From Melioribacteraceae bacterium (GTDB lineage: Bacteria; Bacteroidota; Ignavibacteria; Ignavibacteriales; Melioribacteraceae), in NCBI GenBank assembly GCA_027030245.1, contig JALVFE010000016.1, positions 310,001 to 374,000 of the forward strand: DNA of 64,000 bases. Reading direction: 5' to 3'. The notes under the pieces are model-generated. The model was not told the DNA's origin, did no database searches, and saw only the letters and a program-made list of their open reading frames with translations. Shown in pieces: positions 2,420-8,833 of this stretch; the stretch's first letter is position 1; each line of letters begins with the position of its first letter. Position numbers and translations under genes: made by a program.

Positions 2420-2827
2420 ATGAATAATAACAGCAAAATACCACGCAGAAAATTTTTAAAGTCAATAGCAGGATTGCTGGTTATTCCTTCAATTGCGGTC
2501 TGGATTGAATCAATTAAAACCCGGCTGAAAATAAATTTAAAATCAAAAAAAATTGTTTTGCCCCCCGATTTGAATGAGGGAATTGTATTTTACGATGGAT
2601 TGATTGTTAAAAAAAACGGAGAAAATATTAAAATTTTCTCATCTACATGTACCCATCTTGGTTGTAAAATAAATCAAGAAAAGAATAACAGATTCGTATG
2701 TCCTTGCCATGGTTCCCAATTTACATTGAGCGGTGAAGTTGTAAAAGGACCGGCGACAAAAAATCTGATGCAACTTAATTTCACAAAAGATAAAAAAACA
2801 GGAAAAATTATTGTTTATGCCGGATAA
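2420..2827 (+). CDS. Rieske [2Fe-2S] protein of a cytochrome bc-type complex
   Basis: This 135-residue protein is a periplasm-facing iron-sulfur subunit that would take one electron from quinol. The N-terminus has PRRKFLKS and a hydrophobic segment, consistent with a TAT-type signal anchor. The cluster motifs are CTHLGC (Cys77, His79, Cys82) and CPCHGS (Cys94, Cys96, His97), giving two Cys and two His ligands plus the bridging disulfide pair. The stop overlaps the start of the next gene by 11 bases, so translation is probably coupled. The partner cytochrome b is therefore the fused protein downstream. The molybdoenzyme lies on the other side of the shared promoter region. Confidence 0.93.
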   Translation: MNNNSKIPRRKFLKSIAGLLVIPSIAVWIESIKTRLKINLKSKKIVLPPDLNEGIVFYDGLIVKKNGENIKIFSSTCTHLGCKINQEKNNRFVCPCHGSQFTLSGEVVKGPATKNLMQLNFTKDKKTGKIIVYAG

Positions 2828-5597
2828 ACAAAAAAACAATTCGACCGATAAACTTTATTCTAAACTATTCGGTTCAACGTTTGGACATATAGCTTTTGCT
2901 TCTTTTTTCATTGCGGCAATTTCCGGTATATTGTTGGCAATCCCTTTCGATGTGAAAGATCCGTTTAATTCCATTGCTTTAATGTTAATTGCTAATCCGG
3001 CAGCCGAATTTATAAGATCCGTCCATTATTGGAGCGCTCAATTTTTCTTGGTTTTTGCAGTTTTACATATTTGGGATCATTTAAGAAAATCGACAGAAAA
3101 GAAAGTGAAAAAAGGAGTCTGGCTTAGACTTACAATTTCTCTACTCGCGGTTTTTTTCGTAATGATAAGCGGATTCATACTAAAAGGTGACGCCGATAGT
3201 ATTCAAGCAAAGCGTATTTTATCTTCTCTCCTTTTTGAAATTCCTTACTTCGGAAAGTACATCTCATATTCTCTGCTTGGAAATGAAAACAGTTATCAAT
3301 TGATATATGTAAATCATATAGCAACCACAACTATATTTTTATGGTTAATAATTATTGAACATGTGAAATTGGTTTGGTCTAACTTACGATCGACATTATA
3401 TTTTCTGACTTTTATTCTAATTGCCTCCTTCTTTTTTCCGGCAGGATTGCACAATAATTCCGATCCGGTAATGAAAGGACCTTGGTATTTTTTAGGCTTG
3501 CAAGAGTTGTTTCATTATTTCAGTTATCCTTCACTTGTTTTAATCTTTTTTACACTGTTGATAATTTTAATTTGGCGGTTGCCAAAACTTCCGGGAAAAA
3601 TTGGAAACTATTCAAAACAATTTATAATCTATACAGCTATTGCTTACATTATTCTAATTGTCATCGGATATTTTTTCAGAGGAGAAAATTGGGAATTTAC
3701 TTCACCTTTGAAAAACCCTTATTTTACCACCTTCACAACGCCGCTTTTAACCAAATTCCAAAATTATTTTACCGATTTTGATTCCAACAAAGAAATAAAA
3801 ACGGTTTTAGGGCAAAAAGAAGGATGCGTTTATTGCCATACGAATTCAAAGGGTTTTACCGTTTCACATTCTCCTGAAATCATCGGATGTGCTTCTTGTC
3901 ATTTAGGAAATCCCTTTACAATCGATAAGGAGCTTGCACATTATGATATGGTATTAATTCCCGGGAACCTTGGCAACGCTAAATTAACTTGTGGAAACAC
4001 AAATTGTCACCCCGATATTACCGACCGGGTAAACAATTCAATCATGACAACAATGAGCGGAGTTGTCAGCGTCGATAAATTCGTATTCGGCGAATCGGAT
4101 AGTTTGAATAAACTTTATCGAGTAGATGAAATCGGAAACAGTGCAGCAGATATTCATTTGAAAAATTTGTGCGCTTCTTGTCATTTGAGTAAGGAAAAAG
4201 AAAAATTCGAGCCTGTAAATCAACTTTCGCGCGGTGGCGGTTGTATTGCTTGCCATCTCACTTATTCCGGTCAGGCAAAACAGGATTTGAAAGAGTATCT
4301 CACGGTCAATAAAATCAAGGGAATTAATGGTGATACTTTATTTCATCCTGGCATATCGTTAAAAGTTACCAACGAACATTGTTTCGGATGTCATAGCCGT
4401 TCTGGTAGAATTTCCACCAACTACGAAGGTTGGCATGAAACTCAGCTCGATAAATCGGAAGTCAACTCTGATGGTTACAGAGTTTTGCAAGACGAGCGGG
4501 TATTTAAATTTATCACGCCGGATATTCATCACCAAAAAGGATTGGAATGTATTGATTGCCATAATTCATACGAGTTAATGGGCGACGGGAAAATGTATGC
4601 GCACGAGGAAAATCAAACAAAAATCCGGTGTGAAGATTGTCATTTTTCAAATAAGCCTGAAACCATAACTTTCGATAAAATGGATTATGAATCATTAAAA
4701 ATTGTGCGACTGAGAAACTTAGAAATTAATAACCGAAAATTTTTAATTACGAAGAAAGACAGTATTCCTTTGATAAATACTTATGTGGTGCAAAACGATT
4801 CAATTTATCTGATAGGGAAAAATACCAAGAAAGTATTTCCGCTTAAAACTCCCAAGCCGGTTTGTCAGACCGTAGGGGCACACAATAATTTATCATGTAA
4901 CAGCTGTCACACGAGTTGGTCACCGCAATGCGTTGGCTGTCATACTGAATTTATTCCCAATGAAGAAGGAATAAACCACTTAACCGGAAATAAAACGGAA
5001 GGAAGATGGGCGGAAGCATCGGGTGTTTTCTTTGCCGAACCTCCAACTCTTGGAATTGTTGAAAAGGAAACGGCAAGCGGAACGAAAAAGAAAGTGGAAA
5101 CTTTCATACCCGGTATGATATTGACGGTTGATAAAAGTGAGTTTACGAAAAAGAAAGATGATGTAATTTTCAAACGGTTATTCGCTCCTGCCGTTTCCCA
5201 CACAACGGCGGCAAAAGGCAGAACTTGCAAATCATGCCATAACAATCCTGTGGCAATTGGTTACGGTCGCGGTAAATTAATTTACAAGACTGTTAACGGA
5301 AAAGGGGTTTGGGCTTTTGAGTCAACATACGCAAACGATGAAAACGACGGACTTCCGCAAGATGCATGGATTGGATTTTTAGATGCAACAAAGTTGGGAA
5401 AATCCACGAGAACAAATGCACGGTCATTTAACTTAACCGAACAAAAAAGAATACTTACCGTTGGGGCTTGCTTGACTTGCCACAAAGAGAATTCGGAAAT
5501 AATGAAAAAATCGCTGATAGATTTTGATGCTTTACTTAAACAAGTATCGGAAAAATGCATATTGCCGGAATGGAACCCCGGTCTTCAGCAGAAATAA
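2817..5597 (+). CDS. Cytochrome b fused to a 12-heme cytochrome c domain
   Basis: This 926-residue protein joins a quinol-oxidising membrane subunit to a multiheme electron carrier. Residues about 1-290 are a multi-pass cytochrome b with paired heme histidines in SVHYWSAQFF...LHIWDH and VNHIA...IIEHVK, and GPWYFLGLQE in place of the usual PEWY Qo motif. After another membrane helix, residues about 337-889 carry twelve heme c sites: eleven CxxCH and one CxxxxCH (CGNTNCH). ATG 2817 is preferred to TTG 2811 and overlaps the Rieske gene. No separate cytochrome c1 is seen, so the fused domain probably takes its place, passing electrons to a periplasmic acceptor. The final electron acceptor is unknown. 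Confidence 0.92.
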   Translation: MPDKQKNNSTDKLYSKLFGSTFGHIAFASFFIAAISGILLAIPFDVKDPFNSIALMLIANPAAEFIRSVHYWSAQFFLVFAVLHIWDHLRKSTEKKVKKGVWLRLTISLLAVFFVMISGFILKGDADSIQAKRILSSLLFEIPYFGKYISYSLLGNENSYQLIYVNHIATTTIFLWLIIIEHVKLVWSNLRSTLYFLTFILIASFFFPAGLHNNSDPVMKGPWYFLGLQELFHYFSYPSLVLIFFTLLIILIWRLPKLPGKIGNYSKQFIIYTAIAYIILIVIGYFFRGENWEFTSPLKNPYFTTFTTPLLTKFQNYFTDFDSNKEIKTVLGQKEGCVYCHTNSKGFTVSHSPEIIGCASCHLGNPFTIDKELAHYDMVLIPGNLGNAKLTCGNTNCHPDITDRVNNSIMTTMSGVVSVDKFVFGESDSLNKLYRVDEIGNSAADIHLKNLCASCHLSKEKEKFEPVNQLSRGGGCIACHLTYSGQAKQDLKEYLTVNKIKGINGDTLFHPGISLKVTNEHCFGCHSRSGRISTNYEGWHETQLDKSEVNSDGYRVLQDERVFKFITPDIHHQKGLECIDCHNSYELMGDGKMYAHEENQTKIRCEDCHFSNKPETITFDKMDYESLKIVRLRNLEINNRKFLITKKDSIPLINTYVVQNDSIYLIGKNTKKVFPLKTPKPVCQTVGAHNNLSCNSCHTSWSPQCVGCHTEFIPNEEGINHLTGNKTEGRWAEASGVFFAEPPTLGIVEKETASGTKKKVETFIPGMILTVDKSEFTKKKDDVIFKRLFAPAVSHTTAAKGRTCKSCHNNPVAIGYGRGKLIYKTVNGKGVWAFESTYANDENDGLPQDAWIGFLDATKLGKSTRTNARSFNLTEQKRILTVGACLTCHKENSEIMKKSLIDFDALLKQVSEKCILPEWNPGLQQK

Positions 5598-6388: not shown

Positions 6389-6769
6389 ATGTTTAAGAAA
6401 ATTTTTTCCATATCGATAATTTTTGCCTACACGTTAATCATCGGTGCGAATACTTTTGCGTTTTTATACTTTAAGATAAACCAACATTATATTGCGGAAA
6501 ATCTTTGTATTCAAAAAGACGAAGCTGAGAACTTATGTATGGGAAGCTGTTACCTCAAAGCAATCCAGAAACGGTTACACGAGGATGAGAAAAGCGAAAA
6601 AGGCACACAAGCCCCAACCTACAAAGCTCCCGTTCAATTCGAAACCACGTTGAATCATAAAATTAACTTAAGCACGATAGCGAAAAAAGGATTTTTAATT
6701 TTAATAAAAAACGATACCCCCCTCGAGAGAGCTGTTGAACCTCTCACACCTCCGCCGAAAAGCGTTTAA
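6389..6769 (+). CDS. Small membrane protein with CxGxCYL motif, linked to copper receptor
   Basis: This is a 126-residue protein with one N-terminal membrane segment or signal anchor (about residues 5-28). It continues NQHYIAENLC and then CMGSCYLKAIQKRL, giving three cysteines near residues 42-57. The C-terminus is proline-rich (EPLTPPPKSV). Short Bacteroidota proteins with an ENLC...C.G.CYL pattern are often found beside TonB receptors and copper genes, which matches the next gene. The cysteines may bind metal on the periplasmic side; that is inference. The gap to the receptor is 152 bases. Confidence 0.65.
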   Translation: MFKKIFSISIIFAYTLIIGANTFAFLYFKINQHYIAENLCIQKDEAENLCMGSCYLKAIQKRLHEDEKSEKGTQAPTYKAPVQFETTLNHKINLSTIAKKGFLILIKNDTPLERAVEPLTPPPKSV

Positions 6770-6883
6770 GTTCAATCTGTTTATTTGTTATTAATTGCAG
6801 CATACAGTGTTATGAATGTGATAAAAAACAAACAAGTATGCCAGTGAAATTTGTTATCAATTTAATTAATTCAATATATTACT

Positions 6884-6913
6884 ATAATAACTTATAGCAA
6901 TATACGTTATTAT
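6884..6913. promoter_or_regulatory. Dyad just upstream of the TonB receptor ribosome binding site
   Basis: ATAATAAC and GTTATTAT are perfect 8-base arms separated by 14 bases. They end just before the CGGAGGTG ribosome binding site of the receptor gene. The element could be an operator or an mRNA hairpin that affects translation. The AT-rich arms make this tentative. Confidence 0.35.
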
Positions 6914-6921
6914 TCGGAGGT

Positions 6922-8802
6922 GTGATGAAAAATAAATTTATTTATATACTATTTGCTTTGGGATTGGTTTTATTAACATCGCGGTGTGTTCTTGCACAGA
7001 AAGACAGTATTATGATTTATTGGCTAAGCCCAGTGGAAGTTACGGCAAAACAGCAGTTGTTGGGAGATAAAAATATTCCGGTTGAAAAAGATAATCTTTC
7101 CAACATATTGGATAGAAACGGTTTTACTCTGATAAGAAAAGGTGTATTTTTTGCGCAAGATATTTTTGCCGACGGATTCAAGCGCAGTGATATAAATGTT
7201 GTTATTGACGGGGAAAGATATCATAGCGCTTGCCCTAACAGAATGGATTCGCCGTTAACGCGAATCAATCCGCTGGAACTGAAAGAAATTGTTCTGCAAA
7301 AAACTTCAGCGGCGTTGCAAGCAGGTTTAGCGGGAATGGTACAATTCAAACGTCCGTTTCCCAATCAACAGCTAAAAGTTAAAGCCGGACTATCAAAATC
7401 GCTCGGCGCGTTGAACAGTCAGGATATTGCTTTTTCAATAGAAAAATCCCACCATAGAATCAATCTGCGTTATGCTTCGGGTAAGCCGTACAAAAATGCC
7501 GAGGGTAAGAATTTCAACGAACTTTATCCTTACAAAGATAATTTTACTTACACGCTGGCAGAAGGTTCTTTCTACGGCGGTTCGGGAAATTGGAAATATA
7601 CGGCTTCGTTTACTTATACGGAAAACGTTTCATTCCCTTATTTATTAATGGACGAAAGATTAAACAGGGTATTCAACGGTTCGGTAAGTTATAAAGGGAA
7701 TAAAATCTATTTCAATTATACCCGGCATATAATGGATAACGGTCTAAGAAAAAGTCCGACAAATTTATTCATGCAGACGGATGCAAAAAATCTTACGATA
7801 GGCGCCGTTGGTACCAATTACGAAATTTACTACAGAAAATGGGATGATGATAATTTCCTAACTGTTCCCGGTAAATTTCTGATAAAGAATCACTTAATTC
7901 CGGCGGTATCATATTTTTCCGCAGCCGGTTTTCATCAAATGAGTTTGGGCGGATTAAACTTATCCGCAAAACTGGGAGTCGTATATGAAAACTTAGGCGA
8001 CAAAAACAGACTCGATTTCTATAAAGCAATTTATCCGGATGCAAAAGATTCCAGATATTTCCTTACTTTTTCGGCAGCCGCCAATTATATGAAAGCATTC
8101 AACGGCGATCTTGCCGGCGGTGTAATTCTTGAAGCGGCTTCGGATGCGCCGGATATTGAAACTTTATTTATATCGGTTAAAAAACCGGCGATGAAACCGC
8201 AATGGAGCGGAAACCCGGATTTGAAACAACCCGTAAGGGCAACATTCAGAACAATGGTTAAATATAAATCCGGTGAGATTGAATTGTTTGCCACGAAAGT
8301 ATGGAACTACGTTAACCTAACATCGATGAAAACTTCTTCTCTCAAATATTTGACATACAGAAATATTGATGCATACATGTTGGGCATTAATGCTTCGATG
8401 ACGCTAAAATATTTTAACACGGAACTGAATTACATTTACGCTCAAAATAATTCCACGGGAAATCCGCTTTCGGAAATTCCGCCGTTGAGAATAACCACGG
8501 TTCTTAATTCACCGGAGTTATATGGATTTACCGGTTTCATACGTCATACTTATAACGATGCACAAACGCGGATTGACGAAAACTTGCACGAAACTCCCAC
8601 TCCGCAGTGGAACAAATTAGATCTCGGCATTTCGGCCAACTACCGTTATTTAACTTTCACGGTTACGGTCGAAAATATTACCAACGAAAACTATTATCAA
8701 CATTTGTCGTTTGCACGCGACCCGTTTGCATCGAAGATGAAAGTGTTTGAACCCGGAAGAACGGTAAGGTTGAATTTAAGAATAAACAAAATGTTCGAAT
8801 AA
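6922..8802 (+). CDS. TonB-dependent outer-membrane receptor, OprC/NosA-like copper type
   Basis: This is a 626-residue outer-membrane transporter with a signal peptide, a plug domain (about residues 35-130, starting VEVTAK) and a C-terminal barrel. The plug holds the block GERYHSACPNRMDS, close to the NosA/OprC signature. The copper site known from OprC is CxxxM plus HxM. Here Cys104-x3-Met108 and His269-Ile-Met271 are present at similar spacing. The last strand ends in RLNLRINKMFE. Together with the CxGxCYL protein upstream, this points to copper uptake. A terminator shared with the convergent transporter follows. Confidence 0.85.
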   Translation: MMKNKFIYILFALGLVLLTSRCVLAQKDSIMIYWLSPVEVTAKQQLLGDKNIPVEKDNLSNILDRNGFTLIRKGVFFAQDIFADGFKRSDINVVIDGERYHSACPNRMDSPLTRINPLELKEIVLQKTSAALQAGLAGMVQFKRPFPNQQLKVKAGLSKSLGALNSQDIAFSIEKSHHRINLRYASGKPYKNAEGKNFNELYPYKDNFTYTLAEGSFYGGSGNWKYTASFTYTENVSFPYLLMDERLNRVFNGSVSYKGNKIYFNYTRHIMDNGLRKSPTNLFMQTDAKNLTIGAVGTNYEIYYRKWDDDNFLTVPGKFLIKNHLIPAVSYFSAAGFHQMSLGGLNLSAKLGVVYENLGDKNRLDFYKAIYPDAKDSRYFLTFSAAANYMKAFNGDLAGGVILEAASDAPDIETLFISVKKPAMKPQWSGNPDLKQPVRATFRTMVKYKSGEIELFATKVWNYVNLTSMKTSSLKYLTYRNIDAYMLGINASMTLKYFNTELNYIYAQNNSTGNPLSEIPPLRITTVLNSPELYGFTGFIRHTYNDAQTRIDENLHETPTPQWNKLDLGISANYRYLTFTVTVENITNENYYQHLSFARDPFASKMKVFEPGRTVRLNLRINKMFE

Positions 8803-8804
8803 TA

Positions 8805-8833
8805 AAAAAGCGGAAGTTACACTTCCGCTTTTT
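8805..8833. terminator. Bidirectional rho-independent terminator
   Basis: GCGGAAGT and ACTTCCGC (8810-8828) form an 8-bp stem with a TAC loop, flanked by A5 on the left and T5 on the right. It ends transcription of both the TonB receptor and the convergent YeeE-type gene. Confidence 0.9.

Follow-up and report, generated by a model that had tools for sequence, protein, structure and literature searches.

The locus analysed here raises two questions: whether a TonB-dependent receptor of a Melioribacteraceae bacterium carries the copper site known from OprC, and what is the role of the small cysteine-bearing protein encoded just upstream. A sequence-only reading of the window (the whole 64,000-nucleotide stretch of DNA under analysis) had answered that the receptor keeps a full CxxxM-HxM site and that the small protein is a candidate periplasmic partner. 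The features on which our analysis bears are collected in Table 1.

Table 1. Coordinates in the window of the receptor, the small upstream ORF and the predicted RNA elements.
Feature	Positions	Strand	Remarks
Candidate leader ORF, 126 aa	6389..6769	+	hydrophobic segment ~8-26, C40/C50-x-G-x-C54, ~66-aa linker, C-terminal LTPPPKSV
Codons of C40, C50, G52 and C54, putative copper-binding cluster	6506..6550	+	conserved in 30 homologs
C-terminal PP-motif site of the candidate leader	6749..6757	+	PP enrichment upstream of OprC-type receptors
RNA arm 1 (predicted)	6742..6754	+	perfect core 6744-6754 TCACACCTCCG, overlaps T-P-P-P codons
Spacer, leader stop to receptor ATG, 155 nt	6770..6924	+	hairpin loop + SD
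RNA arm 2 (predicted), receptor SD + start codon	6915..6928	+	CGGAGGTGTGA(TGA)
Receptor ORF	6922-8802	+	from GTG 6922
OprC/NosA-type TonB-dependent copper receptor (predicted), 625 aa from ATG	6925..8802	+	homology, fold
CxxxM half-site (C104, M108), plug	7231..7245	+	aligns with OprC C143/M147; invariant
HxM half-site (H269, M271), barrel strand	7726..7734	+	aligns with OprC H323/M325; model strand 259-271
Terminator-like hairpin just 3' of receptor stop	8805..8833	+	13 bp + T run

OprC was the only match for the receptor in a phmmer search of all PDB sequences (best E 1.8e-8, identity about 17%), and TIGR01778 TonB-copper was its best NCBIfam family (E 6.7e-24), at a score of 84.6 bits that lies far below the equivalog cut-off of 472.45 bits. 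OprC was also the closest solved fold: when the AlphaFold model (pLDDT 87.1, pTM 0.82) was compared with the PDB by Foldseek, OprC chains took ranks 1-28 (E 4.1e-28, TM 0.73). The sequence CGGAGG at 6915-6920 forms a Shine-Dalgarno (SD) sequence ahead of ATG 6925, which is the likely start rather than GTG 6922; the residue numbers of the copper site (C104, M108, H269, M271) are counted from the GTG. These four residues fall exactly on the copper ligands of OprC, C143, M147, H323 and M325 (PMC8610252), as the phmmer alignment pairs ACPNRMD with ACPNRMD and YFNYTRHIMDN with YYNYADHIMDN. The corresponding codons are 7231-7233 and 7243-7245 for C104-PNR-M108, and 7726-7728 and 7732-7734 for H269-I-M271. 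Since the search of the PDB gave OprC alone, with the motifs aligned in register, these are not chance motifs; across 27 homologs, some with as little as 22% identity, the C, M, H and M of both half-sites never varied. The two halves stand 165 residues apart, against 180 in OprC (C143 to H323; PMC8610252), so that the site, its match to OprC and the spacing all hold as first described. The receptor has a further HxM (H338-Q-M340). It differs from OprC in being about 100 residues shorter and in an apparently reduced methionine track: of the 11-12 Met expected of such a track, the segment after HxM has one (M284), or 1-3 in relatives, where OprC has M339/M341/M343/M348. The four aligned ligands and the fold support a copper receptor of the TIGR01778-type group of OprC (Pseudomonas aeruginosa) and NosA (P. 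stutzeri), with an intact predicted site.

The genome holds one such receptor. In its class, Ignavibacteria, a receptor match was found in 18 and a match to the small protein in 25 of 197 genomes, and a scan of GTDB genomes with two conserved peptides gave at least 545 relatives. The 80 loci kept span many phyla (Bacteroidota, WOR-3, Aquificota, Acidobacteria, Nitrospirae and others), whereas the published description speaks of Proteobacteria. Several of these receptors (L053, L054, L063 and L057-L059) sit in clusters with nos-type genes, reminiscent of NosA; for L053 and L063 this was verified by Pfam matches for NosZ, NosL, NosD and the ABC genes. NosZ was present in 13 of 20 receptor genomes as compared with 75 of 197 overall (p 0.014, with four of the 20 coming from a biased search). 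A role of the receptor and small protein for NosZ only is not supported, because the nos cluster of the window's genome, which also has three good COX1 matches, lies on another contig. A further nos locus (G000:C37, locus L167 4805-9453) carries a tandem pair of NosZ-like genes. The product of the first, of 749 aa, has a CuA-type CTEFCSALHLEM site; that of the second, of 799 aa and lipoprotein-like, lacks the CuA cysteines and bears a haem-c motif, CNACH, at its C-terminal side. Behind them come NosD, Fe-S proteins, NosF and NosL. In the window itself, positions 2420-5597 encode a Rieske protein and then a single ORF in which a cytochrome b region is fused to a large multihaem domain with many CxxCH motifs, and just upstream, on the other strand, lie a Tat molybdopterin oxidoreductase and a MerR-like regulator.

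As the sequence-only reading had suggested looking for, the small protein and receptor recur as a pair in other genomes. Receptors of the same type lacking such a small protein were found in L048, L049, L051, L055 and L056, and that of Roseovarius (L145) is preceded by a true DUF2946 protein. Proteins with a Nitro_FeMo-Co (NifX-like) domain adjoin the receptor in L048 and L050. In a Geobacteraceae (L111) and an Opitutales (L153) genome, other cysteine-bearing small ORFs ending in PPPK or PPPR precede OprC-type receptors; they match neither DUF2946 nor the family described below, and are possible further leader families.

The small protein belongs to a family, present in 159 of 395 Bacteroidota genomes sampled, with an N-terminal membrane segment, a C...CxGxC cluster, a linker of fixed length and a C-terminal PP. 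The three-cysteine cluster pointed out at the start was borne out, as C40, C50 and C54 were invariant in 30 homologs, with G52 and L56 nearly so. The CYL signature held in part: CMGSCYL is present, yet the position after C54 varies in the family (Y, H, Q, E or F). Invariance across the family was limited to C40, C50, C54, P122 and P123. In 33 members, the distance from the last cysteine to PP was 65.8 +/- 2.2 residues, while pairwise identity in the linker was 20%, against 17.5% after shuffling, and in the cysteine region 38% against 18%. The homologs were found mostly through their N-terminal half and end in PP plus a few residues, with H, P, Q, K or R before it and mostly R, K, Q or E after it. 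In the window, PPP occupies residues 121-123 and the hydrophobic peak begins at residue 8. When PP was not used as a selection criterion, PP stood within 10 residues of the end in 32 of 34 C.[GAS].C ORFs located ahead of an OprC-type receptor, compared with 151 of 1615 (9.3%) in a background of same-size ORFs from the same loci. In the AlphaFold model the N-terminal helix is predicted with confidence and the linker with low confidence, and there is no folded domain beyond the helices of the N-terminal half. This anatomy is that of a cis-acting translational leader of the CruR/CutF type and not that of a chaperone.

Two characterized systems bear on this assignment. In Bordetella pertussis, the C-terminal RAPP of CruR (DUF2946) stalls the ribosome, and copper bound to its CxxC relieves the stall and turns a TonB receptor off (PMC9426467); according to Roy et al., oprC of P. 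aeruginosa also has a cruR homolog ahead of it. Our leader resembles CruR (bp2923) as a putatively exported small ORF with a cysteine motif and a C-terminal PP at fixed spacing, placed before a TonB copper receptor and sharing operon partners. It differs in its C-x9-C-x3-C (CxGxC) instead of CxxC, in a spacing of about 65-66 residues instead of about 45, in a tail that is mostly [FT][HP]PP (PPP in the window) instead of RAPP, and in its output, which is predicted to be a helix masking the ribosome-binding site (RBS) as opposed to the Rho mechanism reported for CruR. We found no match of the leader to the DUF2946 profile (PF11162), and a profile comparison of the family with a true DUF2946 leader gave a probability of 0.6%; membership of DUF2946/CruR was rejected on these grounds. 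CxxC, RAPP and the ~45-residue spacing are absent as well. In Rhodobacter capsulatus, the proline tail and CxxxC of CutF control a stem-loop that masks an SD (PMC9973294). The leader has the properties used to define CutF-like proteins: it is shorter than 150 aa (126), has PP in its last 15 residues (121-123), has an N-terminal export segment, as judged from hydropathy and the model helix, and precedes a same-strand gene by less than 1000 nt (155 nt). The published list of CutF-like proteins includes many from Bacteroidota (PMC9973294), and the class is therefore known in outline; the CxGxC-65-PP family may already be among the published clusters. The predicted masking of the receptor SD by a stem-loop is a further likeness. 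In contrast, CutF carries CxxxC, controls an oxidase and has its arrest enhanced by copper, and its stem-loop is described downstream of cutF, over the cutO SD, whereas the predicted stem arm of our leader is the arrest-codon/stop region itself. In the open-licence literature we found no paper on the CxGxC-65-PP family or on its stop/start helix, and a 2025 survey, which was confined to RAPP/RGPP, listed no leaders with a link to copper among Bacteroidota (PMC12992588).

The genes that follow the leader were examined in 40 loci with 43 family members. The next gene encoded a TonB receptor (OprC-type or other) in 24 cases, MbnP in 10, SCO1 in four and YtkA in two, and the second gene an MbnH-like CCP_MauG protein in 10 of 26 and PepSY_TM in four; the same partners have been reported for CruR operons (PMC9426467). 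In L215, L218, L219 and L231, the leader family is represented a second time, by a copy with a tail IFHPPLA or similar; after a gap of 290-600 nt come genes for a 240-aa protein and a superoxide dismutase, which suggests that this branch is redox-linked.

We then come to the RNA. In the window, the last codons of the leader are predicted to pair with the receptor start in a helix of 11 perfect base pairs, 6744-6754 with 6915-6925, plus two pairs beyond a bulge (duplex of the two arms, -24.8 kcal/mol). The helix was found in both the MFE and the centroid structures, and the fold of the stretch that begins at the PPP codons and reaches the receptor start gave a z of -3.96, with 0 of 200 shuffles as stable. 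It appeared only once the PP codons were included, the intergenic RNA folded without the last leader codons giving no signal (z +0.7). Since PP codons, of the form CCNCC, are by their nature able to pair with an SD, part of this helix is to be expected, and we therefore assessed gene specificity by comparing the pairing of each PP/stop segment with its own next-gene start and with swapped partners, which corrects for that resemblance; start codons were picked by signal-peptide score, blind to pairing. True partners paired better both where an SD was present (z -5.0, n=13) and where it was not (z -10.2, n=49). The signal was maximal at the PP codons and stop, upstream control segments falling mostly within 2 SD (standard deviations) of the swapped mean, and the shift amounted to -2.5 kcal/mol as compared with -0.5 for other adjacent gene pairs of the same loci. 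In 36 fresh loci the result was replicated (z -5.9, against -0.2 and -1.2 for two controls). The leader stop codon lay inside the helix in 47 of 63 cases, and close relatives displayed compensating changes, L258 pairing TTTTTTAGTG with CACTAAAAAA and L260 TTTTTTAAGTT with AACTTAAAAAA. The best pairing lay elsewhere in L063, L207, L216 and L085, all of the group with SD. The L267-L277 lineage, with a spacing of 71, has little stop/start pairing and probably a different output mechanism; its tails are mostly DHPPN and its gaps about 180-280 nt. In L053 (6255-6746), unlike its sister L054, the leader has no stop after LTPPPK and overlaps the receptor start by about 40 nt, which makes it a natural variant for the stop/start model.

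We believe that the leader is probably a CruR/CutF-like nascent-chain copper sensor that switches translation of the receptor, the two forming a self-regulated copper-uptake unit, a reading that draws support from the sequence motifs, their fixed spacing, the neighbouring genes and the pairing of the RNA. By homology, the receptor would bring copper ions across the outer membrane through its OprC-type CxxxM-HxM site. The ribosome would pause at the C-terminal T-P-P-P-K of the leader while the nascent chain is exported and, at low copper, would hold arm 1 (6744-6754), leaving the receptor SD and start free for the receptor to be made. Binding of copper, the presumed ligand, to the C40/C50/C54 cluster would relieve the pause; once the ribosome had departed, arm 1 would pair with the SD, the hairpin would close and receptor translation would drop. 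At that pause the cluster would stand ~65 residues from the P site, of which ~30-35 would lie in the tunnel and others would span the membrane. The 65 residues from cysteine to PP, as compared with 45 in CruR and CutF, would thus place the cluster past both tunnel and membrane, to read extracytoplasmic copper. We infer the direction of control from CruR and from the logic of uptake genes: a copper importer should be on at low copper, and copper should therefore relieve the pause. The combination would be one of CruR polarity with a CutF-like output. Against this reading, the leader motif differs from the tested RAPP/RGPP; the proline tail of CutF itself gave no strong stalling in a reporter (PMC9973294).

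If the leader instead acted on transcription, as CruR does in Bordetella, its stall would shield a Rho site, copper would free the ribosome, letting Rho terminate ahead of the receptor, and the RBS helix would be secondary. The operon partners and logic are those of CruR, the spacer of 155 nt is close to the 162 of bp2923 (PMC9426467), and no intrinsic terminator was found on the + strand between leader and receptor in the window, which leaves room for Rho. We consider this unlikely, as pairing between stop and start is strong, is specific to the gene and was replicated, and many spacers are short (18-100 nt).

A leader of the same design might also sense another cue, such as the redox or disulfide state of thiols, the status of export or a soft metal other than copper. 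Disulfides could form among the three cysteines, superoxide dismutase genes lie behind one sub-branch, and some known arrest leaders serve to monitor Sec export (PMC12992588), but the downstream genes are mostly copper-handling or TonB receptors, some with the OprC copper site, and a cue other than copper seems improbable to us.

The periplasmic partner proposed at the outset would be a membrane-anchored chaperone whose cysteines take up copper from the plug and hand it on, and the export signal, the invariant cysteines and the constant copper-gene neighbourhood agree with it. It leaves unexplained, however, the invariant PP beside the stop, a linker fixed in length and not conserved in sequence, and the pairing of the last leader codons with the next start; we rejected it as the best reading on these three points. 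Moreover, the leader also occurs ahead of genes for which a partner of this kind is not needed (MbnP, SCO1), and the modelled protein offers no folded domain outside its N-terminal-half helices, so that we hold a chaperone to be quite improbable. Finally, a CutF-like polarity, in which copper prolongs the pause and induces the receptor, is highly improbable, for although CutF works in this way with a similar SD-masking stem-loop (PMC9973294), it drives a detoxifying oxidase, whereas it would be maladaptive for copper to induce an importer, and copper represses both oprC and bfrG (PMC9426467, PMC8610252).

Copper import is much less understood than export. Beyond this locus, we lean towards the view that Bacteroidota widely use copper-sensing arrest leaders with no detectable relation to DUF2946, having their own motif (mostly [FT][HP]PP), a 65-residue ruler by which the copper site comes to lie outside the membrane, arrest codons and stop that double as the anti-RBS arm, and each leader keyed by covariation to its gene. 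If so, a large phylum would rely on a nascent peptide, gauging copper outside the membrane, to control its genes for copper uptake and for cuproproteins, with an RNA switch built into the arrest codons themselves. Arrest peptides would then extend past the RAPP/RGPP motifs and the OprC-type site well past Proteobacteria, and the signature CxGxC, 65 residues, PP, stop and partner helix would find copper-regulated genes in unstudied Bacteroidota.
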